Source: Ferrigenium straubiae (GTDB taxonomy: Bacteria > Pseudomonadota > Gammaproteobacteria > Burkholderiales > Gallionellaceae). From it: a DNA stretch of 64,000 nucleotides. The stretch covers positions 1 to 64,000 of the forward strand of contig JAHQXD010000001.1 of the NCBI GenBank assembly GCA_019449655.1. Direction: 5' to 3'. The position numbers and the translations under genes are program-made. Positions 24,803 through 36,268 of the stretch are shown here, piece by piece (positions within the stretch are counted from its first letter, which is position 1; the number at the start of each line of letters is the position of its first letter). Below the pieces are notes generated by a model, which worked only from the letters and a program-made list of their open reading frames with translations, was not told the origin of the DNA and did not search any database.

Positions 24803-24831
24803 TTGACACATCTGGTTGCTTGGGACAGAAT
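24803..24831 (+). promoter_or_regulatory. Promoter of the norSY-type cluster
   Basis: A perfect -35 TTGACA (24803-24808), a 17-base spacer and -10 CAGAAT (24826-24831, four of six) are positioned to start transcription near 24838, ahead of the first small membrane-protein gene. The direct repeats at 24769-24792 end 10 bases before the -35 box and suggest activator control. Confidence 0.6.
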
Positions 24832-24904
24832 TTGAGGGCGCGTCAAATTGTCGCAGAACAATCGCGTGAAATATGACGTAAATATAACGGGAGGGAGGTA
24901 TCCA

Positions 24905-25048
24905 ATGGAATCATCCAACGCTGGGAGCGCGCCAGTTCCTTTCACGCGGCAAGTGCTGCAAAACAAAATGCTGATGTTGACCGTACTGATAGCCGTCAGC
25001 GCTGTGGCTTACTTTGGTATTGGTCTTTTCATGTTGCTCGGTCGCTAA
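24905..25048 (+). CDS. Small single-helix membrane protein A
   Basis: A 47-aa protein starting at ATG 24905 behind a strong GGGAGGGAGG at 24890-24899 (a TTG at 24848 would give 66 aa but lacks a site). It has a soluble N-terminus and one transmembrane helix (residues about 22-44). The segment PFTRQVLQNKMLML matches, position for position, PHFMQKILDNQWLMLL in the small protein encoded at 25200-25355, so the two are tandem paralogues. It is likely an accessory subunit of the adjacent heme-copper enzyme, comparable in size to CcoQ or CoxIV-type subunits. No family name is recognised. Confidence 0.75.
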   Translation: MESSNAGSAPVPFTRQVLQNKMLMLTVLIAVSAVAYFGIGLFMLLGR

Positions 25049-25199
25049 AGCCTCTTTAAATCTAGGATATTCTGGTTGCCTCGCAAGTGGCGGCTTGAAT
25101 GGAGGCCGAGTAGGTAAAGAAAAAAACGAGTTTATTTGGGTTGTTTTTGTGTCAACTATCAATGGCGTCAGCCATCAATTGTCAAGGGAGGAGTAAAAG

Positions 25200-25355
25200 A
25201 TGTCAGGACTAACTTCAAGTGGTGCAAGCCCTCATTTCATGCAAAAAATCCTGGATAACCAGTGGCTTATGTTGTTGTTGGCCAACTTGGTGCCTCTGGT
25301 GCTTTATACGGGGTGGGGTTTGTATGACATTATCAATATACCGACGGCCCCATAA
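25200..25355 (+). CDS. Small single-helix membrane protein B
   Basis: A 51-aa protein (ATG 25200, preceded by GGGAGGAG) with one membrane helix (about residues 18-42; WLMLLLANLVPLVLYTGWGL). It is a paralogue of the 47-aa protein just upstream, sharing the pattern PxFxxx(V/I)LxNxxLML. It precedes norS by about 40 bases and is presumably in the same transcript. A structural or assembly subunit of the NorSY-like complex is the most economical reading. Confidence 0.75.
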   Translation: MSGLTSSGASPHFMQKILDNQWLMLLLANLVPLVLYTGWGLYDIINIPTAP

Positions 25356-25394
25356 AAGTGCCACGTTTGATTAATTAACAAGGAGAGAGGAATT

Positions 25395-25952
25395 ATGGGA
25401 ACGTCTTATACCCCCCCAACAAACCCTGATTGGTGGCGTGAGCCAATCGAACGCACCGAAATATGGTGGATTGTTCTTGCATTTGCATGGTGTGTATTCA
25501 TGTTTGTCTGGATGACCGGCTGGCACTTTATGGGGCCGCAAAACATGAGCAACGAAACTTACAAGACGACCCCTGAGGTGTTTTCCAAGAAGGTTGCCGA
25601 TATGCAGGCAAAGTACACTGTCCGCAAGGATGAGGCTACTGGTGAAGATGTCGTGGCACCGCCACCCGGCAGCGATGTTTATCTGGCCGCCATGTCTTGG
25701 CAGTATCGCCCCATCCTTGAGCTGCAAAAAGGGCAGAAGTATCGCATACATATTTCGTCGCTTGATGTGGGGCACGGTTTCTCGTTGCAGCCTGAGAACA
25801 TCAACTTCCAAGTCTATCCTGGCTATGAGCAGGTTACTACCATGACACCCAACAAAACCGGTACTTTTGCCATAGCTTGTGGCGAATACTGTGGCGGCGT
25901 TGATGCCATGGGGCATCACACGATGCTGGGCAGAATTTACGTAAAGGAGTAA
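25395..25952 (+). CDS. norS: NorS-like CuA-domain subunit II of a heme-copper oxidoreductase
   Basis: A 185-aa subunit with one N-terminal membrane helix (about 23-46) and a periplasmic cupredoxin domain. CuA ligands are recognisable: H127 in DVGHGFS, C162 and C166 in ACGEYCGG, E164, H174 and M177. The spacing from the second Cys to the His is seven residues instead of the usual three, a four-residue expansion of the CxExCxxxHxxM motif. CuA implies electron input from a soluble cytochrome c or cupredoxin. The start has GGAGAGAGG upstream; norY follows six bases after the stop. Assignment as norS rests on the pairing with norY and senC as in nitrifier norSY-senC clusters. Confidence 0.85.
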   Translation: MGTSYTPPTNPDWWREPIERTEIWWIVLAFAWCVFMFVWMTGWHFMGPQNMSNETYKTTPEVFSKKVADMQAKYTVRKDEATGEDVVAPPPGSDVYLAAMSWQYRPILELQKGQKYRIHISSLDVGHGFSLQPENINFQVYPGYEQVTTMTPNKTGTFAIACGEYCGGVDAMGHHTMLGRIYVKE

Positions 25953-25958
25953 AGAATA

Positions 25959-27665
25959 ATGGCGACGACAATGTCTGATTTTCGCATTGATCCGGTGTCG
26001 GGTCTCAAGATTCACCGGACGGCCAATACGCTGGTCAAATGGAACGCGTTTGCGTCTGTGGTGTTTTTGCTGGTTGGCGGTCTGTTTGGTCTCGGAGTGG
26101 CGCTTACCCGTATGCCGAGCGTGCAACTGCTCAGCCCGGAATTGTTCTACATGGCGCTGACGGCTCACGGCTTGGTGAGCTTGGCGGTGTGGATCATTTT
26201 CTTTGAAATGGCAGTGTTGTATTTCCTTGGCGCGCATGTTCTGGGTAACCGGATTGCGGGACCGAAGTGGGCGTGGGCGCAGTTCTGGCTCATGCTTGTA
26301 GGTGCAGCCCTGGTTGCCGTGGCAGTGCTGGGTGGCAAGTCTAGCGTGATGATGACTTCCTATCCGCCGCTTCAGGCTGAGCCGCATTTCTATCTGGGGT
26401 TGATCCTGTTTGCCGTGGGTGCACTGATTGGCTGTTTCGTGTTCCTCGGTACGCTGGTGGTTGCCAAGAGGGAGAATACTTATCAGGGGTCGCTTCCGCT
26501 GGTGGTGTTTGGCGGTGTGACAGCTACGGTGATTGCAGTGTTCACCATCGTTTCCGGCGCCTTGATTCTGATCCCGACTTTCCTCTGGTCGGTCGGGCTG
26601 ATCAGCCACATTGATCCGATGATGTATCGGGTTATCTGGTGGGGTTTCGGCCACTCTTCGCAGCAAATCAACGTGGTTACCCATATCTCCATCTGGTACC
26701 TCATTGCATCGCTGGTGTTTGGTGCCAAGCCAATGTCCGAGAAGGTAAGCCGTGGTGCGTTCCTGCTGTATATCCTGTTCCTGCAACTGGGTTCCGCGCA
26801 CCATCTGCTGTCTGACCCGGGTCTGACTTCCGCCTGGAAGATATTCAATACCAGCTACATGATTTATCTGGCTGTGCTGGCTAGTATGATCCACGGCTTG
26901 ACCGTTCCTGGTGCCATTGAAGTTGCGCAGCGCAGGAAAGGTCTCGATACCGGTCTGTTTACCTGGCTGCGTAAGGCTCCTTGGGGTAATCCGATTTTCT
27001 CCGGCATGTTCCTGTCGCTGGTGGGCTTCGGTTTTATCGGCGGTATCACCGGCGTGGTGATGAGCGTGGAGCAGATCAACATGGTTATCCACAACACCGT
27101 TTACCTGCCGGGCCATTTCCATGGCACGCTGGTGTCCGGTACTACCTTGGCATTCATGGCGGTCACCTACTGGCTGATCCCGGTGGTATTCCAGCGCAAG
27201 ATCGCTCTGGCTGGAATGGCAAAGTTGCAACCCTATGTTTTCGCCATCGGCTCTGGAGTTTTCTCCATCGCCCTGATGGGGGCAGGTACCTTGGGTGTGC
27301 AGCGCCGTCATGCGGATATCACCTTTGCAGGTCAGCCACTGGCTTATGAATACCCTGAAATCGCCAAGGGTCTGATGGACTTGGGCGAAATCTTCGGTAT
27401 AGTCATGGCGGTCGGTGCGGTTATGTTCATTCTGGTTGTTCTGGCCTCCATCTTTGCGGGCGAGAAGATTCCTGAAGGTTCCGCTCCATGGCCTAAGGTT
27501 GAAGATGCTGACGTTGTGGCCGAAAGGACCGGAAAGCATCACGTTGGTATGTGGGGTATGGAAGCGCCCGGCACCTTCATACTCGCCATGATTCTTTTCG
27601 TGACGATCGTGCTGTACTACTTCATTAACTTCAAGTACCTGTCCACTGTGTGGGGCATGTCTTAA
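25959..27665 (+). CDS. norY: NorY-like heme-copper oxidoreductase catalytic subunit (sNOR-type)
   Basis: A 568-aa membrane protein with about 12-13 helices. Heme ligands H70 (TAHGLVSL), H386 and H388 (GHFHGT) and all three CuB histidines (H232; H281-H282) are present. The usual HPEVY after the first CuB histidine reads HSSQQ, so the cross-linked active-site Tyr is Gln236. Loss of that Tyr is a hallmark of nitric oxide reductases rather than oxygen reductases, and norSY clusters of ammonia oxidisers (sNOR) have the same partner arrangement. Predicted reaction: 2 NO to N2O with electrons from CuA. Not experimentally established for this protein. Confidence 0.82.
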   Translation: MATTMSDFRIDPVSGLKIHRTANTLVKWNAFASVVFLLVGGLFGLGVALTRMPSVQLLSPELFYMALTAHGLVSLAVWIIFFEMAVLYFLGAHVLGNRIAGPKWAWAQFWLMLVGAALVAVAVLGGKSSVMMTSYPPLQAEPHFYLGLILFAVGALIGCFVFLGTLVVAKRENTYQGSLPLVVFGGVTATVIAVFTIVSGALILIPTFLWSVGLISHIDPMMYRVIWWGFGHSSQQINVVTHISIWYLIASLVFGAKPMSEKVSRGAFLLYILFLQLGSAHHLLSDPGLTSAWKIFNTSYMIYLAVLASMIHGLTVPGAIEVAQRRKGLDTGLFTWLRKAPWGNPIFSGMFLSLVGFGFIGGITGVVMSVEQINMVIHNTVYLPGHFHGTLVSGTTLAFMAVTYWLIPVVFQRKIALAGMAKLQPYVFAIGSGVFSIALMGAGTLGVQRRHADITFAGQPLAYEYPEIAKGLMDLGEIFGIVMAVGAVMFILVVLASIFAGEKIPEGSAPWPKVEDADVVAERTGKHHVGMWGMEAPGTFILAMILFVTIVLYYFINFKYLSTVWGMS

Positions 27666-27683
27666 AGAAATGAGATGACGGGG

Positions 27684-27798
27684 AGGGTGCCTTTGGCACC
27701 CCTCCAAGGTAGTGAATATTCAGGTTAGAGGGAAACCTCTAACCTAAACCAGAAAAGCAATTGCCAAGTGCACAATGCGCGGTTTAGGTTAGAGGTTT
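27684..27798 (+). promoter_or_regulatory. Attenuator-like inverted repeats between norY and ctaB
   Basis: A hairpin GGGTGCC/GGCACCC (27685-27701) follows norY without a T-tract. Then come three related blocks: AGGTTAGAGG (27722-27731), its exact complement CCTCTAACCT (27736-27745) closing a GAAA loop, and a downstream copy. Bases 27733-27750 are the perfect 18-base inverse of 27781-27798. The middle block can therefore pair with either neighbour, forming alternative hairpins as in attenuators. A REP-like mobile repeat is the other explanation. Confidence 0.6.
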
Positions 27799-27865
27799 CA
27801 ACAGATTGGAAGATCAACTAATACCTTCTCCAAAGCAGCGGAGAGAGGAAGGAACGGTCGTTAAG

Positions 27866-28729
27866 ATGATGATGGTCAGGCAGTGTATTAATCTTTTCAA
27901 ATTGCGCATTGGCGTGGTAATTACGTTGGCGGCTTTGGGCGGCATGGCAATCACCCCAGGGCAGGCGTTGACCAGCTGGCAAGTTTTTATCTTGTCGCTG
28001 ACGGTCATGATGGCCTCTGCGGCTGCAGGCGCTTTCAATCAATACTTCGAGCGCGATATCGATGCAAAAATGACGCGAACCAAAAATCGTCCATTCTTGA
28101 ACGGCTACTTTCAGCATAGCCGCAAGTGGCTGGTGGTCATCGGCTCGATGCTTGCAGTTTCTGTAGCCTCCGCTGCCTTTGCATTTAACGCGATGACGGC
28201 GCTGAATATTTTCCTCGGCGCGTTTACTTATGCCATAGTTTATACAGCTTGGTTGAAACGCCGTACCTGGTTGAATATCGTATTTGGCGGGTTGGCGGGG
28301 AGTTTCTCGGTGCTTGCAGGTGCGGCGGCGGTTGATCCTTCGTTTGGCCCGCTTCCCGGACTGCTGGCCTTGGTGCTATTCCTGTGGACGCCTCCGCATT
28401 TCTGGAGCCTGGCAATCGTCATTCGCGACCAATACGCCGCTGCAGGGGTGCCTATGCTGCCGGTGGTAAAGGGTGACAAAAAGGCAGCACGCATTATTTT
28501 TGGGCATACCATCCTTCTGGTTGCCGTCTCGCTCTTGCCGATGTTTTACGGTTTGGGCTGGGTATATCTGACCGGTGCCTTGGTGGGTGGAATTTATTTC
28601 ATAGTTAAAAGTGTGCAATTGGTGCGCAATCCAACCAAAGAGGCGGCTATGGCCAACTTTGTTGCCTCGTTGGTGCAGTTTAGCGTGTTGATGATAGCGT
28701 TGATGCTGGAAGTGAATTTCGGCGCCTGA
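27866..28729 (+). CDS. ctaB: Protoheme IX farnesyltransferase (heme O synthase)
   Basis: A 287-aa UbiA-family prenyltransferase (CtaB/CyoE) with about nine helices. The first Asp-rich motif is NQYFERDIDAKMTRTKNRP and the second conserved region is WTPPHFWSLAIVIRDQY. ATG 27866 gives the standard N-terminus; a TTG at 27806 would add 20 atypical residues. It makes heme O from heme B. No heme A synthase (ctaA) is present in the cluster, hinting that the adjacent enzyme uses heme b or o rather than heme a. Confidence 0.93.
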   Translation: MMMVRQCINLFKLRIGVVITLAALGGMAITPGQALTSWQVFILSLTVMMASAAAGAFNQYFERDIDAKMTRTKNRPFLNGYFQHSRKWLVVIGSMLAVSVASAAFAFNAMTALNIFLGAFTYAIVYTAWLKRRTWLNIVFGGLAGSFSVLAGAAAVDPSFGPLPGLLALVLFLWTPPHFWSLAIVIRDQYAAAGVPMLPVVKGDKKAARIIFGHTILLVAVSLLPMFYGLGWVYLTGALVGGIYFIVKSVQLVRNPTKEAAMANFVASLVQFSVLMIALMLEVNFGA

Positions 28730-28746
28730 TTTTCATTGTTAGGAGA

Positions 28747-28784
28747 AAAACCCGTCTAAGGTTTGCCGCAGACGGGTTTTTTTA
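28747..28784 (+). terminator. Intrinsic terminator after ctaB
   Basis: CCCGTCT (28751-28757) pairs with AGACGGG (28770-28776). The stem is extended by A-runs against T-runs, with a 12-base loop and seven T residues (28777-28783). It ends the norS-norY-ctaB transcript 20 bases or so after the ctaB stop. Confidence 0.9.
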
Positions 28785-28821
28785 TCCCCTAAAAAAGTAT
28801 ATTAGAAAAATATAATTTATC

Positions 28822-28849
28822 TTGCGTTTTCGATATAGCATATTAAAAT
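28822..28849 (+). promoter_or_regulatory. Possible promoter of senC
   Basis: TTGCGT (28822-28827), a 16-base spacer and TAAAAT (28844-28849, five of six -10 positions) in an A+T-rich stretch. It lies between the ctaB terminator and the senC start at 28899, and fits a separate transcript for senC. Confidence 0.45.
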
Positions 28850-28898
28850 AGTCGGGTATTGTTCAGTCGATCCCTATACAAGTATTAAGGCCTAAGGT

Positions 28899-29792
28899 AT
28901 GCACCTCTCTTCGTTAACGCTAAGCTGTGCGATTCTCTTGTCGGTGACACTGCCATCCTTGGCGCAGGGTCGCGATATCAGCGGCATGAAGCTATATAAG
29001 GCCAATGTATCGACGGCGAAATCGCAGGCGCAGCCGGAAGTGGCAGATGCACAGGTTTTTAGTGAAAAAGAAGCCCTGCGAATAAGCCAGGCTGCAATAG
29101 GCAACCAGCTTGGCGATTACACTTTGCTGGATCGCAGCGGACGTACCGTGCGTTTGGCGGATTACCGTGGCAAGCCGCTGGTCATCAGCTTGATCTATAC
29201 CCATTGTCCGATTATCTGCGCGACTACCACGCGCAGCTTGACTGCGCTCAAATTATCTCAAGAAGCGCTGGGAGTGGACAGTTTCGGTGTGTTGACAGTG
29301 GGTTTCGATACTGAGAACGATACGCCTGAAGCGATGGACGATTTTGCCAAGCGGATGGGGGTGGATCTGCCTAAATGGGATTTTGTCAGTGCCGACCCGG
29401 AAACGATCAAAAAACTGAGCAAGGATTTGGGATTCAGTTACTACCCTACCGAGGAGGGTGGTTTTAATCATATAACGCAGACCACCTTTGTCGATGGACG
29501 GGGTAAGGTCTACAGTCAAATCTACGGTGATGAGTTCGAGAACAAGACGCTGCTAGAGCCGCTTAAGGATATGATTTACAAAATAAAAACGGCACAGCCT
29601 GGACTGGCCGGATTTTCGAGTAAAGTGAAGCTCTTTTGTACGGTCTACGACGAAAAATCGGGGAAGTATGAAGTGAGCTACAACTATTTTTATGCGATGG
29701 GGGCGGGGATCATCATGTCGCTGCTTATTGGATGGTGGCTCGTGTACGAATATCGCCGCAGCCCGAAACGTAATTACCCGCGCCATGATTGA
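28899..29792 (+). CDS. senC: SCO1/SenC-family copper chaperone
   Basis: A 297-aa exported, membrane-anchored thioredoxin-fold protein. The N-terminal signal is MHLSSLTLSCAILLSVTLPSLAQ. The copper site is CPIIC (CxxxC) in YTHCPIICATT plus the downstream His in GGFNHITQTT. A second membrane helix lies near the C-terminus (MGAGIIMSLLIGWWLVYEY), longer than in minimal SCO proteins. SCO proteins load CuA of subunit II; here NorS is the obvious client. The norSY-senC association is known from nitrifiers. Confidence 0.9.
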   Translation: MHLSSLTLSCAILLSVTLPSLAQGRDISGMKLYKANVSTAKSQAQPEVADAQVFSEKEALRISQAAIGNQLGDYTLLDRSGRTVRLADYRGKPLVISLIYTHCPIICATTTRSLTALKLSQEALGVDSFGVLTVGFDTENDTPEAMDDFAKRMGVDLPKWDFVSADPETIKKLSKDLGFSYYPTEEGGFNHITQTTFVDGRGKVYSQIYGDEFENKTLLEPLKDMIYKIKTAQPGLAGFSSKVKLFCTVYDEKSGKYEVSYNYFYAMGAGIIMSLLIGWWLVYEYRRSPKRNYPRHD

Positions 29793-29869
29793 TTTACGCC
29801 AGAATAACGTTTTTTTGCTCAGGCGCGTTCTTTGTATTTGTTTGAAAATGTTTTTTTCAGGAGTTACCG

Positions 29870-31804
29870 ATGATTAAACTCGTACACCGCATCGGCCAGG
29901 GCATTTTCTTGCGCCTGGAGAGCGCCTTCAATGGCATTTTTGGGCCAGCCTTGAACCCATTCTATTACCTGGGCGCGATCACCTATCTGATGTTCTGGAT
30001 CATCGTGGTCAGCGGTTTTTACATCTACGCTTTTTACGACACCGGCGTGAACGACGCTTTCGATTCGGTGGAGCAGCTAACCAATAAGCAATGGTACCTG
30101 GGCGGCATCATGCGCAGCCTGCATCGTTACGCTTCCGACGGGATGATCGTGTTCGGCGTCCTGCACCTGCTGCGTAATTTCGCCTTCGACCGCTACCGCG
30201 GCTTCCGGTGGTTTTCCTGGTATACGGGCATCCTGGTGTTGTGGCTGATCTATATAGCGGGCATAAATGGCTATTGGTTGCCTTGGGATAAGCTGGCCCA
30301 GTTTGCGGCCGTGGGAACCGCGGAATGGCTGGATGCGTTGCCGATATTCAGCGCTCCGCTGGTGCGCAATTTCCTGGAGCAGGGCAGCGTGAATGATCGC
30401 TTCTTCTCCCTGCTTTCGTTTATTCACCTTGGCATCCCGCTGGGGGCTTTTGCGATCATCTGGGTGCACACGCAGCGCGTACCGCAGGCCAAGACCTCTC
30501 CGCCCAAGGCAATCACGATTTGGTTGATCCTGTCCATGGTCGTACTTTCCTTGATTCATCCGGCTTTGAGCCAAGGGCATGCAGACTTGGACTCTGCGCC
30601 TATGGTTCTGAATCTGGACTGGTTCTACTTCTGGAGCTATCCGTTGCTCTATTCATGGAACCCGAGCCAAGTCTGGATATTGGTGGGAGGTGTTTCCGGA
30701 CTTTTATTATTGCTGCCGTTCCTCGGAGGGCGACGCGGCAAGGGTGAATACGAAATCATTACTGCTCCCGCCGGCCATACAGTGATGGCTAAACCGGGCG
30801 AGACTGTCCTTGAGGCTGCACTGCGCCAGGGGTTGAACCTGCCCTATGTGTGCCGCGACGGCGCCTGCGGGGTTTGTAAGGGCAATATCCTCAAGGGAAC
30901 GGTCGATTACGGCACCTACCAGAAGGGTGTGCTCACCGATGCGGAGAAAGCGGAGGGCAAGGCCCTATTCTGCTGCGCCAAGCCGCTGTCGGATTTGGCA
31001 ATAGAATGCACGGAAGTCGATGAACTGGGGAAATTTCCGGTCAAGACCATGAAGTTCCGCGTGGAAAAAATGGAGCGGGCAGCGCCGGAAGTCATGCTGA
31101 TCGAGTTGCGCCCCGAAGGCGGCGAACAAATGAATTTTATCGCCGGCCAATATATCGCCGTGCATCTGGAGGATGGCAGCAAGCGCAGCTATTCCATCGC
31201 CAATGCCCCGCATGAATCGGACCACCTGCAACTGCACATCCGCCTGGTGGAGGGCGGCAAATTCACCACGCATGTGTTCAATAAAATGAAAGTGGGCGAT
31301 GTGCTGCAGGCGGAAGGCCCGCTGGGCACTTTCTTCCTGCGCGAGGAAGTCGACAAACCCATCATCTTCATGTCGGGAGGTTGCGGTTTCGGCTCCGTCA
31401 AGGGCATGGTGGAACATGCCTTCAAGATCGGGCTGAATCGCCCCATGACGCTGTACTGGGGGGCCAGAACACCGGCCGACCTGTATTCGGATCTGCCGGA
31501 AAAATGGCAGCGGGAGCATAACAATTTCAAGTTCATCCCGGTCATATCCGAACCGAAACCGGAAGATGGCTGGCAGGGCCGAACCGGCTTGGTTCACGAG
31601 GCCATCCTGCAGGATTACCCGCAACTGGACGGCTATCAGGTTTATGCCTGCGGTTCATCCGGGATGGTTGAGGCAGGCCGTGCGCCGTTCATGGCCAAGG
31701 GGCTACCTGAAGATCAGTATTTTTCTGACGCATTTACGGTTGCCTGCTACAAGGCTCCGGCTGCGGAAGCATCAGTATCCTCCGAGGGGGTGACACATGG
31801 CTAA
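29870..31804 (+). CDS. Cytochrome b / [2Fe-2S] ferredoxin / flavoreductase fusion
   Basis: A 644-aa three-part protein. Residues 1-285 are a cytochrome b N-terminal (b6-like) domain with two His pairs for two b hemes (H85/H99 and H186/H200). Residues about 292-385 are a plant-type ferredoxin (Cys328, 333, 336 and 368 or 369). Residues 388-630 are an FNR-type module with the FAD motif RSYSIANAP and the nucleotide motif GGCGFGS. It could couple NAD(P)H and quinone/quinol redox through the membrane. Its N-terminal domain is clearly paralogous to the cytochrome b at 34178-35737. ATG 29870 is preceded by CAGGAG; the next gene overlaps its stop. Confidence 0.88.
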   Translation: MIKLVHRIGQGIFLRLESAFNGIFGPALNPFYYLGAITYLMFWIIVVSGFYIYAFYDTGVNDAFDSVEQLTNKQWYLGGIMRSLHRYASDGMIVFGVLHLLRNFAFDRYRGFRWFSWYTGILVLWLIYIAGINGYWLPWDKLAQFAAVGTAEWLDALPIFSAPLVRNFLEQGSVNDRFFSLLSFIHLGIPLGAFAIIWVHTQRVPQAKTSPPKAITIWLILSMVVLSLIHPALSQGHADLDSAPMVLNLDWFYFWSYPLLYSWNPSQVWILVGGVSGLLLLLPFLGGRRGKGEYEIITAPAGHTVMAKPGETVLEAALRQGLNLPYVCRDGACGVCKGNILKGTVDYGTYQKGVLTDAEKAEGKALFCCAKPLSDLAIECTEVDELGKFPVKTMKFRVEKMERAAPEVMLIELRPEGGEQMNFIAGQYIAVHLEDGSKRSYSIANAPHESDHLQLHIRLVEGGKFTTHVFNKMKVGDVLQAEGPLGTFFLREEVDKPIIFMSGGCGFGSVKGMVEHAFKIGLNRPMTLYWGARTPADLYSDLPEKWQREHNNFKFIPVISEPKPEDGWQGRTGLVHEAILQDYPQLDGYQVYACGSSGMVEAGRAPFMAKGLPEDQYFSDAFTVACYKAPAAEASVSSEGVTHG

Positions 31805-32363
31805 GCCAATGCAATATATCGGCCAAGGGATTTTTTATGCCCTGTTTATGGGTGTGATCGGCTATTTTTCTACTTTTCCGACATACACTCATTTGCCGCC
31901 TGATGAGACATTGATCAAATTAAGCTTCAGACATGCAGGCCAGCATGTGGGAGAATGTCGCGAGCGTTCTGCGGAGGAGCTGGCCAAATTGCCTGAATAC
32001 CAGCGTAAGGGAGGCACCAAGGTGTGCCCGCGCGGGCGATCCGATGTGGTCGTTGAACTGGAAATGGATGGAAAACGGCTCTATCATGAAACGTTGAGGC
32101 CGACCGGGATGGCACACAGCAGTAATGCAAACATTTACCGGCGCATTCCGGTGAAGGCGGGCGTTCATACGTTGACGGCACGCCTGAAGGATCACCCTGG
32201 GGATGATTTCAACTATGTGAGCAATGAAACAGTTGACCTTGCGCCAGGGCGTATCCTGGTGATCGATTTCAAGGCGGCGACCGGCGGGTTTATTTTCAGG
32301 AACAAAAACTTAGCAGTAAAAGTGCAACCAGAAACAAAAGTGCAGCCAGAGGGTAAGGAATGA
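31797..32363 (+). CDS. Membrane-anchored periplasmic protein of unknown function
   Basis: A 188-aa protein overlapping the cytochrome b fusion by eight bases and the next gene by four. An uncleaved N-terminal helix (about residues 10-28) is followed by a beta-rich periplasmic domain with two Cys (GECRERS, KVCPRGRS) that could form a disulfide or bind a cofactor. I do not recognise the family. Its tight overlap on both sides says it is an integral part of the module, probably a subunit or assembly factor for the heme-copper-oxidase-like protein that follows. Confidence 0.75.
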   Translation: MAKPMQYIGQGIFYALFMGVIGYFSTFPTYTHLPPDETLIKLSFRHAGQHVGECRERSAEELAKLPEYQRKGGTKVCPRGRSDVVVELEMDGKRLYHETLRPTGMAHSSNANIYRRIPVKAGVHTLTARLKDHPGDDFNYVSNETVDLAPGRILVIDFKAATGGFIFRNKNLAVKVQPETKVQPEGKE

Positions 32364-33775
32364 ATTCAGCAAATCAGCAAGCAGGTGCCGGGCAAGGAAT
32401 GAACGCAGGCGGAGAAGAAAAACACGGGAGCGGGTTTTCCCTCACCATGCCGTCGGAGGTCAGCCGCAAGCTGGCTGCAGGCTGGCTGAAGCTCGGCATC
32501 GCATCGCTGGTAGGCGCAGGGCTGTTTGCCATTCTACTGGTGCTTTCGCGTACCCCCTATGTCCAGGATATTTTTCCCTGGGTCGATTTTTTCCATACCG
32601 CGCTGGTGGTGCATGTGGATTTATCGGTGTTGCTCTGGTTCATGGCATTCGCCGGTGTGCTGTGGAGCCTGAATTCATCGTCCAGATTCATCGGCGCAGG
32701 CTGGCTGGCGCTGGTGCTGGCTACCGTGGGCGCTGCGGTGATCGTCCTGTCTCCCTTCATCGCGGTCGGCAAGCCGCTGATGAGCAATTACGTGCCGGTC
32801 ATTGAAAGCACCTTCTTCTTTACGGGATTGATTATTTTTGCCGTCGGCGTGGCTGTGCTGGTATTGCGCAGCTTGGTGGCGGTGCCGCCTGCCGGCATGT
32901 GGCAGGGCGGCGAAGGCTCGATACGCCTCGGTTTTTATGCCGCCTCCATCTCCACATTGGTTGCCCTGATTGCTTTCGGCTGGTCCTACAACATCATTCC
33001 GCGGGGAATTTTCGAAAGCACACAGTACTATGACATGCTGTTCTGGGGTGGCGGCCATGTGCTGCAATTCACCTATTCACTGTTGATGCTGGCCGGCTGG
33101 CTGTGGCTGGCGGATGCCTGCGGCGCGAAAATTCCGCTGACCTCGAGGTTGGCGTCGGGCTTTCTCGTGCTGGGGCTGCTGCCAGTATTCTACGTTCCCG
33201 TTATTTACCTGTCTTTTGCCGGTGACATGGGCGGCTACATGGAGCAGTTCACCCAGTTGATGAAAATTGGCGGTGCTTTTGCCCCCGTGCCGCTCGGTTT
33301 GGCGGTGCTATACGGCATCGGCGCGGCAGGAAGCGATCCGGCGACCAAGCCGCAACGCGCCGCGCTGCTCTCGTCCGTCATCCTGTTTGCCATCGGTGGC
33401 GGGATAAGCCTGATGATCGGGGACAGCAACACCATCATCACCGCACACTATCACGGAACCGGCGGGGCAATCAGCCTGGCCTTCATGGGACTGGCCATAC
33501 ACCTGCTGCCGCGCCTCGGCTACCGCACACCGGATTTGAAGTGGGCCACGTTGATGTCCTACATCTACGGCACGGGCCAACTGCTCCACATCATCGGGCT
33601 GTTGTGGTCGGGCGGATACGGAGTACAGCGCAAAGTCGCCGGTGCTGCACAAGGCCTGCATGGTTTTGCGCAGACGGCGGGTATGGGACTGATGGGCTTG
33701 GGCGGATTGGTCGCCGTGATCGGCGGAATCATGTTCCTGGTTGTGGTCTTCAAGGCCATGCGCCGGCCGGCGTAA
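32360..33775 (+). CDS. Divergent heme-copper oxidoreductase subunit I lacking canonical CuB site
   Basis: A 471-aa protein with about 12 helices. Low-spin heme ligand H85 (VVHVDLSVLLWFM), high-spin heme ligand H363 and low-spin H365 (AHYHGTGG) are in place, and one CuB histidine (H233 in WGGGHVLQF) remains. The helix VII His-His pair is missing; that segment reads IYLSFAGDMGGYMEQF, offering Asp289 as a possible substitute. There is no HPEVY Tyr. Remembered reports describe non-canonical NO-reductase families (gNOR, nNOR) with altered CuB ligands; membership needs a phylogeny. No subunit with CuA or c-type heme is adjacent, so electrons may come from the cytochrome b fusions. Confidence 0.75.
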   Translation: MNSANQQAGAGQGMNAGGEEKHGSGFSLTMPSEVSRKLAAGWLKLGIASLVGAGLFAILLVLSRTPYVQDIFPWVDFFHTALVVHVDLSVLLWFMAFAGVLWSLNSSSRFIGAGWLALVLATVGAAVIVLSPFIAVGKPLMSNYVPVIESTFFFTGLIIFAVGVAVLVLRSLVAVPPAGMWQGGEGSIRLGFYAASISTLVALIAFGWSYNIIPRGIFESTQYYDMLFWGGGHVLQFTYSLLMLAGWLWLADACGAKIPLTSRLASGFLVLGLLPVFYVPVIYLSFAGDMGGYMEQFTQLMKIGGAFAPVPLGLAVLYGIGAAGSDPATKPQRAALLSSVILFAIGGGISLMIGDSNTIITAHYHGTGGAISLAFMGLAIHLLPRLGYRTPDLKWATLMSYIYGTGQLLHIIGLLWSGGYGVQRKVAGAAQGLHGFAQTAGMGLMGLGGLVAVIGGIMFLVVVFKAMRRPA

Positions 33776-33862
33776 GGACTGCAATGCTGTTCAATCCGCG
33801 CCTTGCCTGCTGTTTTCAGGCAGAGCGCGGATATGAATCAGTTGAAGTAGGCGTTTAGCCTG

Positions 33863-34063
33863 TTACTTTGGCGCTACCTCGGAGGTAATTATGAGGTACT
33901 TCATGAAGTTGAACGTGATAAATGCCAGCGTCAGGATGATGCAAAAGAAGATGACGCTGCGATTCTTGAAACGCTCTCCGCGCGAAACCTCGATGCGATC
34001 CAGTATCCAGTCGGACGCGAAGTAAAGAAATGCGGCTACAACAGTGTAATAAATAACTTCCAA
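33863..34063 (-). CDS. Small two-helix membrane protein
   Basis: A 66-aa protein on the minus strand, between the divergent heme-copper subunit and the second cytochrome b fusion. TTG at 34063 is the only sensible start, with GGGGAA upstream. Two hydrophobic helices (VVAAFLYFASDWILD and VIFFCIILTLAFITFNFM) flank a charged loop (RIEVSRGERFKNR). No family name is recognised. It is convergent with the preceding gene and divergent from the following one. Confidence 0.6.
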   Translation of the reverse strand: MEVIYYTVVAAFLYFASDWILDRIEVSRGERFKNRSVIFFCIILTLAFITFNFMKYLIITSEVAPK

Positions 34064-34177
34064 GTTAATTCCCCATTAGTATTTTGCGACCCGCTCATTA
34101 TATTATGCTGCCATGCTTTGGGCAGATGAATTTAACCGGTTTCCGGCTGTATTGCTGGTATTGATGCAAGGGTTTCC

Positions 34178-35737
34178 TTGACTACTCCCAGGCACACCGA
34201 GTCTGTTGCACGCAGGATGCTGCTCCGGTTCGAAGGCATCCTGAATAAGGCTTTCGGCAACGATCTTAACCCTTTCTACTATCTGGGTGCGCTGGGGTTC
34301 TATTTTTTCTGGGTTGTGGCCGTCAGTGGCGCCTATATCTACATCTTCTACGATACCGGCGTGGAAGATGCTTTCAAATCGGTTGAGTCCCTCACACTCG
34401 AACAACCGTATCTCGGCGGCATCATGCGCAGCCTGCACCGCTATGCTTCCGATGCACTGCTGGTGGTGATGCTGCTGCACTTGTTGCGCGAATATATTTT
34501 GGGGCGTTATCGCGGAGCGCGCTGGTTTGCGTGGTTCACGGGGGTGCCGCTGATCTGGCTGATCTTTGCCGCCGGCGTCAATGGCTACTGGATGGTCTGG
34601 GATAAGCTGGCCCAATATTCCACCGTGGCTGCCATGGAATGGTTCGACTGGCTGCCGATTTTCAGCGAGCCGCTGTCGCAGAGTTTCGTCTCCCGGGAAG
34701 TCCTTAATGACCGGTTTTTCTCGCTGATATCGTTCTCCCATGTAACCATCCCGCTGATCATCCTGTTCCTGCTCTGGGTGCATATCATGCGCATCAGCTA
34801 CCCCGTGGTTAACCCGAGGCGCGGGCTTGCGCTCGGGGTGCTGCTGGCGATGCTGGTTCTGTCGTTGCTCAAACCGGCGCTGAGCCAGGGGCTGGCGGAT
34901 ATGGGGGTTGAGCCGCGCGATATCGGCATCGACTGGTTCTACATGTTCATTTTCCCGCTGCTGGACAGATGGTCGGCTGGCCAGGTATGGGCACTGACTG
35001 TCGGCATCACCCTGCTGATCAGTATCCTGCCGTGGCTGCCGACCCGGAACAAACAGATCCCGATTGCCGAGGTGAGCCTCAAGAATTGCAACGGCTGCCG
35101 GCGCTGTGTTGCCGACTGCCCCTACGAGGCGGTGGTGACGCAACCGCGCACCGACAGCCTGCATTTCCAGGAAGAGGCCGTGGTCATCCCGGATCGCTGC
35201 GTCAGTTGTGGTATCTGCGCCGGTGCCTGTCCTTCCTCGACTCCCTTCAGGAGTGATGCCGGCTATGTGAGTGGAATCGAAATGCCCTCCATGCCGATGG
35301 CCGGGCTGCGCGCCGCGATGACCGCCGACTTGGCGAAACTGAAGGGCGGTGCGCGGGTAATCGTGTTCGGCTGCGACAACGCGGCGGACATCGAAAAATT
35401 GCGCGGCGAAGGTATTGCCGTCATGAGCCTGCCGTGCACGGCCATGCTGCCGCCATCCTTCATCGAATATGCGCTGCATGAGCATCAGGCCGATGGCGTA
35501 TTCATCACCGGCTGCCGCGAGAATGACTGCTACCACCGCATGGGCGGAATGTGGACGACGCAGCGGCTGACCAGGGAGCGCGAGCCGCGCCTGCGCGGTC
35601 GCGTCGAGCGCGACCGTCAGCGGATCAGGCTGTTCTGGGCGTCTTCTGCGGATTTCAAGGAATTGTCCAAAGAACTGGAATCGTTCCGCATCGGCCTGCG
35701 CGGCTCGGCCTCTACCCAAGTGGAAGTGAACGATTAG
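34178..35737 (+). CDS. Cytochrome b / 2x[4Fe-4S] ferredoxin / MvhD-like fusion
   Basis: A 519-aa protein. A cytochrome b N-terminal domain (1-290; heme ligand pairs H87/H101 and H188/H202) is fused to a two-cluster ferredoxin (CNGCRRCVADC at 304-314 and CVSCGICAGAC at 341-351). A C-terminal domain (about 375-500) resembles the methyl-viologen-reducing hydrogenase delta subunit MvhD (VFGCDNA..., TGCRENDCYHRMG). MvhD domains normally pass electrons to heterodisulfide-reductase-like complexes. The start is TTG 34178 with weak AAGGGT upstream; an internal ATG at 34217 is possible. It probably links the quinone pool to low-potential Fe-S chemistry. Confidence 0.85.
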   Translation: MTTPRHTESVARRMLLRFEGILNKAFGNDLNPFYYLGALGFYFFWVVAVSGAYIYIFYDTGVEDAFKSVESLTLEQPYLGGIMRSLHRYASDALLVVMLLHLLREYILGRYRGARWFAWFTGVPLIWLIFAAGVNGYWMVWDKLAQYSTVAAMEWFDWLPIFSEPLSQSFVSREVLNDRFFSLISFSHVTIPLIILFLLWVHIMRISYPVVNPRRGLALGVLLAMLVLSLLKPALSQGLADMGVEPRDIGIDWFYMFIFPLLDRWSAGQVWALTVGITLLISILPWLPTRNKQIPIAEVSLKNCNGCRRCVADCPYEAVVTQPRTDSLHFQEEAVVIPDRCVSCGICAGACPSSTPFRSDAGYVSGIEMPSMPMAGLRAAMTADLAKLKGGARVIVFGCDNAADIEKLRGEGIAVMSLPCTAMLPPSFIEYALHEHQADGVFITGCRENDCYHRMGGMWTTQRLTREREPRLRGRVERDRQRIRLFWASSADFKELSKELESFRIGLRGSASTQVEVND

Positions 35738-35750
35738 AAATTTAGCGGAT

Positions 35751-35780
35751 ACAGGGCGGAACCACAGTGTTCCGCCCTGT
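35751..35780. terminator. Perfect hairpin between convergent genes
   Basis: A 12-bp perfect stem (ACAGGGCGGAAC at 35751-35762 with its complement at 35769-35780) and a 6-base loop lie between the cytochrome b fusion and the minus-strand secreted protein. No T-tract follows on either strand, so it is a likely bidirectional transcript end or RNA-stability element rather than a classical intrinsic terminator. Confidence 0.6.
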
Positions 35781-35815: not shown

Positions 35816-36268
35816 TCAATAAAACGATTTACGCCATACAACCCAAATCGAGTGGCGCCGCGGCTTGATATCGATCTGCCCGTCTTTCGATTCGAAGCGC
35901 AGGATAGGCGACAACGAAGCGCGGTTACTGCCGGGAGCAATTTGCCATTGTGCGTTTGCTGACCAAGCAGTCTTCGCTTTGGTTTCGGCGACAAGGCCCA
36001 ACCGTAAGGTGTTGCTTACCCCTGATTCAACGGGCGCAATATTGTCCGAATGGGAAAAAACGCTGTCCGTTTTGATCAGGTTCGGAGGCATCAATTCAGT
36101 GCCGGAGAATATCGGCTGGATTGTTAATATGTCCAGGTCGCGCGCAAAGAAGTCTTCCTCGGACTGGGCTTTATGTGCCACAACGACCAATCCAACGAAT
36201 ATCACCCCGGAGCACATGCGAAGCATGGCCACTCGAATAAATCTAAAGCAAGAAATGAAGTCAGACAT
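35816..36268 (-). CDS. Secreted protein of unknown function under riboswitch control
   Basis: A 150-aa protein with an N-terminal hydrophobic export segment (MLRMCSGVIFVGLVVVAHKAQ). The mature part has alternating beta-like stretches and ends WVVWRKSFY, an aromatic C-terminus reminiscent of outer-membrane or surface beta proteins. The ATG at 36268 has a strong GGAAGGAGAA site. A c-di-GMP-I riboswitch lies in its leader, so the gene product is expected to change with the c-di-GMP level, as with adhesins, pili or surface proteins. I do not recognise its family. Confidence 0.75.
   Translation of the reverse strand: MSDFISCFRFIRVAMLRMCSGVIFVGLVVVAHKAQSEEDFFARDLDILTIQPIFSGTELMPPNLIKTDSVFSHSDNIAPVESGVSNTLRLGLVAETKAKTAWSANAQWQIAPGSNRASLSPILRFESKDGQIDIKPRRHSIWVVWRKSFY

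Follow-up and report, generated by a model that had tools for sequence, protein, structure and literature searches.

A gene cluster of Ferrigenium straubiae probably encoding an eNOR-type nitric oxide reductase with two cytochrome b fusions and a CuB-less heme-copper paralogue

Introduction

'Candidatus Ferrigenium straubiae' KS, an autotrophic nitrate-reducing iron oxidiser, is described in the available part of PMC12622760 as having no canonical nor genes and hence as needing partners for the removal of nitric oxide (NO), which raises the question of whether the species possesses another route to this end. An answer is suggested by a block of eleven genes (positions 24905-35737; ten on the plus strand and one antisense) within the 64,000-nucleotide stretch of F. 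straubiae DNA analyzed here, hereafter the window (assembly GCA_019449655.1, contig JAHQXD010000001.1, positions 1 to 64,000). The block encodes subunits II and I of a heme-copper enzyme, the heme O synthase CtaB, a SCO1/SenC copper-delivery protein (SCO), two diheme cytochromes b fused to redox domains (bFNR and bMvhD), a predicted periplasmic protein (Peri), a second, CuB-less heme-copper subunit (HCO2), a two-helix protein (TM2), and two small one-helix proteins. We propose that this cluster probably encodes an eNOR-type enzyme reducing the NO made by the nitrite reductases NirS or NirK to nitrous oxide (N2O), together with accessory membrane proteins for electron supply and assembly.

Results and Discussion

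Identity of the first heme-copper enzyme

Subunit I (25959..27665, plus strand) keeps the histidine sextet H70, H232, H281, H282, H386, and H388 in 51 of 51 aligned rows, and its closest solved structures are B-type (ba3) oxidases. In the phmmer alignment, Gln236 (codon 26664-26666) is matched without gaps to the active-site Tyr of the ba3 enzyme, and this Gln is present in all 51 rows as well. As far as the available text of PMC8756737 goes, Gln at the Tyr site is the mark of eNOR and Asn that of sNOR; Asn is also given for qCuANOR, with which the sNOR of Nitrosomonas was placed (PMC3475470, available part). By the published residue mark, subunit I is thus an eNOR. A preceding examination of the letters alone, here called the sequence-only reading, had named the enzyme NorSY-type; we rejected this label, and with it an sNOR or qCuANOR identity, because the diagnostic residue is Gln and not Asn. 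The marks of further NO reductase (NOR) families are absent from both heme-copper subunits of the block, i.e., the Glu following the helix VI His in cNOR and qNOR (HxWVE; here HSSQQ in eNOR and HVLQF in HCO2) and the active-site Asp of gNOR (here Gln in eNOR, and in HCO2 Phe in 108 of 111 rows and Tyr in 3).

Subunit II (25395..25952, plus strand) is a cupredoxin encoded directly upstream, with 6 bases between the two genes. Its match to COX2 is marginally below the Pfam threshold (21.0, cut-off 22), and the CuA residues Cys162, Cys166, His174, and Met177 are kept in 45 of 45 aligned rows. A B-type-like subunit I, Gln at the Tyr site, and a cupredoxin subunit II directly upstream are all shared with the eNOR family of Hemp and Gennis, whose members are often annotated as cytochrome c oxidases (PMC8756737, available part). 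In the tree, subunit I grouped with Gln-bearing Thermus and Thermomicrobium plasmid homologues (98/97), no eNOR-labelled sequence being included, and VIA-align did not separate the A, B, C, and NOR types (Z within about 3). With the NorSY-SenC genes of sNOR/qCuANOR, the block shares the succession of a small transmembrane peptide, a CuA subunit II, subunit I, and SenC; it differs in having Gln instead of Asn, and neither cytochrome b fusions nor a CuB-less paralogue are mentioned in the available part of PMC3475470.

The CuA loop (window 25878-25925) has the form C-x3-C-x7-H, four residues longer, in all 19 Gallionella-like rows parsed, including that of the window, and C-x3-C-x3-H in 16 other rows, while 10 rows did not fit the pattern. 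It is also worth mentioning that the Thermus thermophilus plasmid eNOR (L168:9983-11668) has Lys at the low-spin heme His site (HFK vs. HFH).

The occurrence of eNOR in Gallionellaceae is not new, because PMC10734462 already reports it there, by BLAST, for four of six narGH-bearing genomes, with cNOR as the commonest NOR. The remaining genes of the cluster are not mentioned in the available part of that paper, and the set by which the locus differs from the known eNOR (CtaB, SCO, two cytochrome b fusions, Peri, and HCO2) is not described in the available part of PMC8756737.

Association with nitrite reductases and replacement of canonical NOR

Within the genus set of 37 genomes (nirS counted at E below 1e-100, nirK at over 290 bits), nirS or nirK was found in all 14 genomes carrying the cluster vs. 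4 of the 23 without it (p = 5e-7), and among the 22 genomes at least 90% complete the figures were 9 of 9 vs. 3 of 13 (p = 5e-4). A search with a qNOR query (E 1e-10) found neither cNOR nor qNOR in 12 of the 14 cluster genomes, the window's genome included, and one of them is present in two of the four nir-positive genomes devoid of the cluster. The window's genome (2,659,708 bases in 5 contigs, 99.99% complete) thus combines nirS, nirK, and the cluster with undetected cNOR/qNOR; the COX1 search gives four heme-copper subunits in it. Its nirS locus is a tandem pair of nirS-type genes (C5:592779-596415), each scoring about 480 bits to Cytochrom_D1, and nirK lies at C5:432509.

A wider sample of 370 Gammaproteobacteria, scored for HCO2, eNOR, and nirS, contained these in 49, 35, and 80 genomes, respectively; eNOR and nirS co-occurred in 31, HCO2 and nirS in 37, and HCO2 and eNOR in 29. 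Amongst 67 nirS genomes checked, canonical NOR was absent in 19 of 31 with eNOR vs. 3 of 36 without it (p = 4.6e-6). The latter 36 comprised 10 genomes with HCO2 alone (2 without NOR) and 26 with neither gene (1 without NOR), these 26 being the lowest-numbered among 39 genomes of this kind. At least 18 of the 31 genomes have a nirS-family gene no more than 20 kb away from eNOR or HCO2, some of these genes being of the lower-scoring nirN/nirF kind, and on the Thermus plasmid a nitrite reductase, an Rrf2 regulator, and a DUF542 protein are encoded near eNOR.

Regulatory sites point in the same direction. A palindrome of the Fnr/Dnr type (at most one mismatch, within 600 bp upstream of subunit II, duplicate locus L130 removed beforehand) was present in 19 of 23 loci outside Gallionella, against a mean of 0.6 and a maximum of 2 in 60 shuffles, and in 51 of 666 stretches taken elsewhere in these loci. 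The NO-reduction module proposed in the sequence-only reading is therefore well supported by the co-occurrence with nirS/nirK, the replacement of canonical NOR, and these boxes, and NO reduction is the most likely activity of eNOR in these organisms.

Several observations weigh against this reading. Two cluster genomes of the genus (G021 and G017) also have cNOR or qNOR, cNOR in the case of G021, and in the window's genome nirS lies on a different contig from the cluster. Within the class sample, 12 of the 31 genomes with nirS and eNOR also carry canonical NOR, and of the 35 eNOR genomes, 4 are devoid of nirS and six of HCO2. Reciprocally, HCO2 occurs without eNOR in 20 of its 49 genomes, 10 of which have no nirS either, so its role is not NO-specific. 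The Gallionella group shows no enrichment of the Fnr/Dnr-type box (2 of 20 loci, shuffle mean 0.8), and none with up to 2 mismatches was found in the 439 bases before the first gene in the window. Finally, the p-values given above overstate independence, because the genomes are related.

Conservation and organization of the cluster

Conservation was assessed in 61 relatives searched for both heme-copper genes and in 80 named Beta- and Gammaproteobacteria loci (many on cut contigs) compared for gene order. HCO2 and subunit I were confined to the same 17 relatives; in 15 of them the two genes lie on one contig less than 10 kb apart, and in G005 and G016 on separate contigs. Matches of bMvhD at E 1e-60 fell into the same 17 genomes, in two of which (G003 and G058) this threshold was reached by the bFNR paralogue alone. 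A suspected break of bMvhD in G017 and G026 was dropped, since the flagged stops lie near the natural ends.

The order recurring across the 80 loci is eNOR II-I-CtaB-SCO-[bFNR-Peri]-[bMvhD-Peri]-HCO2-TM2, in which bMvhD is last in the window's group and elsewhere usually precedes HCO2. HCO2 was found in all 80 loci, Peri in 70, bMvhD in 64, SCO in 60, subunit I in 52, TM2 in 50, CtaB in 45, subunit II in 44, and bFNR in 43. The whole cluster is carried by 'Ca. F. altingense' AG11 (L022) and 'Ca. F. bremense' BP06 (L027), and the order is kept well beyond Gallionella; a Defluviimonas plasmid has eNOR-CtaB-SCO-bMvhD-Peri, with HCO2 absent from the plasmid. Cultured bacteria with the cluster include Herbaspirillum sp. 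ST 5-3 (L068), with no bFNR in the 21 kb covered, and Quisquiliibacterium transsilvanicum DSM 29781 (L083), whose bFNR lies upstream and is encoded on the other strand. The enzyme block and the second block, which the sequence-only reading had expected to stay together, mostly do so, with HCO2 being separate from the rest in some sulfur-oxidiser loci (L059, L063, L069, and L074).

That reading had counted ten genes in a row. All genes named there are open and in order, but they number eleven with two small genes added at the front, and TM2 is on the minus strand. The first of the small genes (24905..25048, plus strand) is an open reading frame (ORF) with a ribosome-binding site for a one-helix protein of 47 amino acids (aa), which had tblastn matches in 18 of the 80 loci, all Gallionella-like by sequence (including L048, titled Polaromonas). 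The second (25200..25355, plus strand) encodes a 51-aa one-helix protein upstream of subunit II, with tblastn matches in 41 of the 80 loci; its position resembles that of CbaC of qCuANOR, and one-helix ORFs occupy the same position in Defluviimonas and Thermus. CtaB (27806..28729, plus strand) was assigned by TIGR01473 (267.9 bits, cut-off 210.3) and SCO (28899..29792, plus strand) by PF02630 (57.8 bits). TM2 (33863..34063, minus strand) mostly lies directly after HCO2, on the opposite strand, where present. The Pfam domains recognized in the cluster were COX1, UbiA (CtaB), SCO1-SenC, Cytochrome_B with Fer2, FAD, and NAD domains, and Cytochrome_B with 4Fe-4S and FlpD/MvhD domains, which bears out the two cytochrome b fusions predicted from the sequence.

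As had been noticed earlier, the block is A+T-richer than its flanks: its G+C fraction is 0.539 vs. 0.616 in the remaining window, with 0.51 in its first part (24803-29800), and a value as low as that of the block was reached in 4 of 107 sliding windows of equal size. Convergent to bMvhD is an ORF (35816-36268, minus strand) for a secreted-looking protein of 150 aa without a Pfam match. In one Gallionella clade (L040 (= L131), L042, and L049), two matches to the heme A synthase CtaA, lying on opposite strands, are located about 1-3 kb beyond bMvhD.

Cytochrome b fusions and the Peri protein

In bFNR (29870..31804, plus strand), Pfam and alignments distinguish a diheme cytochrome b6, helices E/F, and 2Fe-2S ferredoxin, FAD, and NAD(P) domains; in bMvhD (34178..35737, plus strand), the same membrane part is followed by two 4Fe-4S clusters and an MvhD/FlpD domain. 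Residues H85/H99/H186/H200 of bFNR, i.e., two bis-His heme pairs, are kept together with D250 and W251 in 41 of 41 rows, as are H87/H101/H188/H202, the eight ferredoxin Cys, the four MvhD Cys, D252, and W253 of bMvhD in 63 of 63; all Fe-S cysteines are retained in both proteins. The ef loop following helix E contains an invariant DW, then mostly F or Y, and aligns to the PEWY of b6f subunit IV and cytochrome b, with Glu changed to Asp and Pro absent. Because the two heme His pairs and this PEWY-like DW[FY] are kept, the fusions likely interact with quinol, and both likely carry a candidate quinol-oxidising site.

Cytochromes bc1 and b6f likewise have two bis-His hemes and, in their ef loop, the (P)EWY motif that DW[FY] resembles; the fusions differ by the Glu to Asp change and by the fused cytoplasmic redox domains, and no Rieske protein or c-type cytochrome was found in the cluster. 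The Rieske search covered nine cluster genes by Pfam, with the one-helix peptides outside the scan and the rest of the genome not searched. Garcia Martin reportedly described in 2006 an Accumulibacter cytochrome b/b6 that carries attached flavin and NAD(P) domains, for which a quinol-NAD(P) link was proposed; the domain fusion is shared, and here it is part of an eNOR cluster. Ferredoxin and MvhD domains are also combined in Qmo-type complexes and in HdrA2/MvhD, the C-terminus of HdrA2 being matched by bMvhD with 69 bits. In contrast to these systems, bMvhD is anchored on a diheme cytochrome b, and no HdrBC or hydrogenase gene was found in the cluster.

Peri (31797..32363, plus strand) is predicted to be periplasmic and to consist of an N-terminal helix and a beta-sandwich (AlphaFold pLDDT 92), with two invariant Cys in the alignment (n = 60). 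A fold search of solved structures gave nothing at or below E 0.001. In most loci Peri follows one or other fusion; five loci (L055, L061, L064, L073, and L082) have two Peri genes, and the window has one.

The CuB-less heme-copper paralogue

HCO2 (32360..33775, plus strand) scores marginally below the Pfam threshold for COX1 (32.5, cut-off 34.8). It keeps the heme-copper fold and the three heme-ligating histidines (H85, H363, and H365), as well as one of the three CuB histidines (H233), while the His-His of helix VII is changed to Ile-Tyr (282-283). Across 111 rows H233 and Q236 are invariant, which was partly built in by the search patterns, and Y283 is present in 107 (Leu in L161). HCO2 and eNOR form sister clades in the tree, and of the 14 eNOR-free genomes examined, 6 have HCO2 adjoining aa3-oxidase genes. 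On these grounds HCO2 is probably an accessory or assembly protein and not a second NO reductase. The sequence-only reading was thus right about the altered CuB site, with one His of three left, and its second reductase is unlikely, as HCO2 also occurs without eNOR.

Some members of the family are named as oxidase subunits. No HCO2 match was found on plasmids, nor among Protein Data Bank (PDB) sequences searched with the HCO2 profile, and the literature searched, judged by titles and abstract beginnings, yielded no description of a CuB-less heme-copper paralogue or of this cluster. At L054:450-9370, bMvhD and HCO2 lie inside an aa3-type oxidase cluster, with no eNOR on the contig. Distant relatives of HCO2 (L018, L183, L186, and L190) have about 30-41% identity; next to L018 and L190 lies a protein that looked CcsA-like by eye, and one His of the helix VII pair is retained in L018.

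Proposed function and alternative explanations

In the scheme that we favor, NO produced from nitrite by NirS or NirK would be reduced to N2O by eNOR, with electrons passing from a periplasmic cytochrome c via CuA, and CtaB, SCO, and often CtaA would supply heme and copper to the enzyme. The two fusions would oxidise quinol at the Qo-like site, where DW[FY] replaces PEWY, and on their cytoplasmic face would exchange electrons with NAD(P)(H) as well as with ferredoxin or a different Fe-S partner; they likely connect eNOR or the quinone pool with these carriers. Peri would be their periplasmic partner, and HCO2 may be a non-catalytic heme protein that assists heme-copper reductases, either by relaying electrons or in their assembly. 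The domains and the Qo-like motif agree with the entry of electrons from quinol, NAD(P)H, and ferredoxin envisaged in the sequence-only reading, whose direction and partners are inferred.

There is some chance, albeit a modest one, that HCO2 and the fusions are chiefly a biogenesis set for heme-copper enzymes (heme A delivery) and not an electron pathway. Amongst 99 loci (a few from one genome), CtaA neighbors 33 of the 74 with eNOR or bMvhD, CtaA, CtaC, CtaD, or CtaG occurs in 10 of the 25 with neither, and HCO2 and CtaA are head to head in L051, L053, L059, L060, L062, L070, L178, L180, and L188. However, the complete flavin/NAD, 2Fe-2S, 4Fe-4S, and MvhD sites of the fusions would be unnecessary for heme delivery, HCO2 stands alone in Thioploca and Beggiatoa-type loci, and 7 of 14 examined HCO2-only genomes have none of the four Cta genes nearby.

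Within the electron-supply scheme, a rather unlikely variant is that HCO2 assembles with Peri and the two fusions into a complex that splits quinol as bc1 does. Of the two quinol electrons, the high-potential one would pass via HCO2 (in place of Rieske) to eNOR and NO, and the low-potential one via the b hemes to NAD(P)+ (bFNR) or ferredoxin (bMvhD). If so, NO reduction would drive the reverse electron flow needed by iron and sulfur oxidisers.

It is unlikely that the first enzyme is mainly an O2 reductase, i.e., a variant ba3-type oxidase in a cluster for microaerobic respiration. The B-type structural neighbors, the aa3-oxidase cluster of L054 with its bMvhD and HCO2, and the description of Gallionellaceae as microaerophiles (PMC11784278 and PMC12622760, available parts) are consistent with this view, but the Tyr of O2 reductases is Gln in every subunit I row, the link to nirS/nirK is tight, and canonical NOR is replaced. 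Least probable is that HCO2 itself is a further NO reductase, or a catalyst that binds NO, whose active site has been remade (H233, Q236, and Y283), a possibility prompted by the conservation of these residues and the sister-clade position, and countered by the loss of two of three CuB histidines, the non-universal Y283, the contribution of the search patterns to the invariance of H233 and Q236, and the retention of canonical NOR in 8 of 10 nirS genomes with HCO2 and no eNOR, as well as its absence from 7 of 10 HCO2-only genomes without nirS (nirK being outside that count).

Significance

The eNOR cluster, with its predicted NO reduction, likely explains NO removal in some iron oxidisers reported to be without a standard NO reductase. 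Beyond this, HCO2-type paralogues without most of the copper site emerge as a common family, present in 49 of the 370 Gammaproteobacteria examined, and NO reduction becomes tied to two cytochrome b fusions that bear a quinol-site motif. As the window's genome has a complete eNOR cluster and no detected cNOR or qNOR, the question of how this iron oxidiser removes NO becomes testable.

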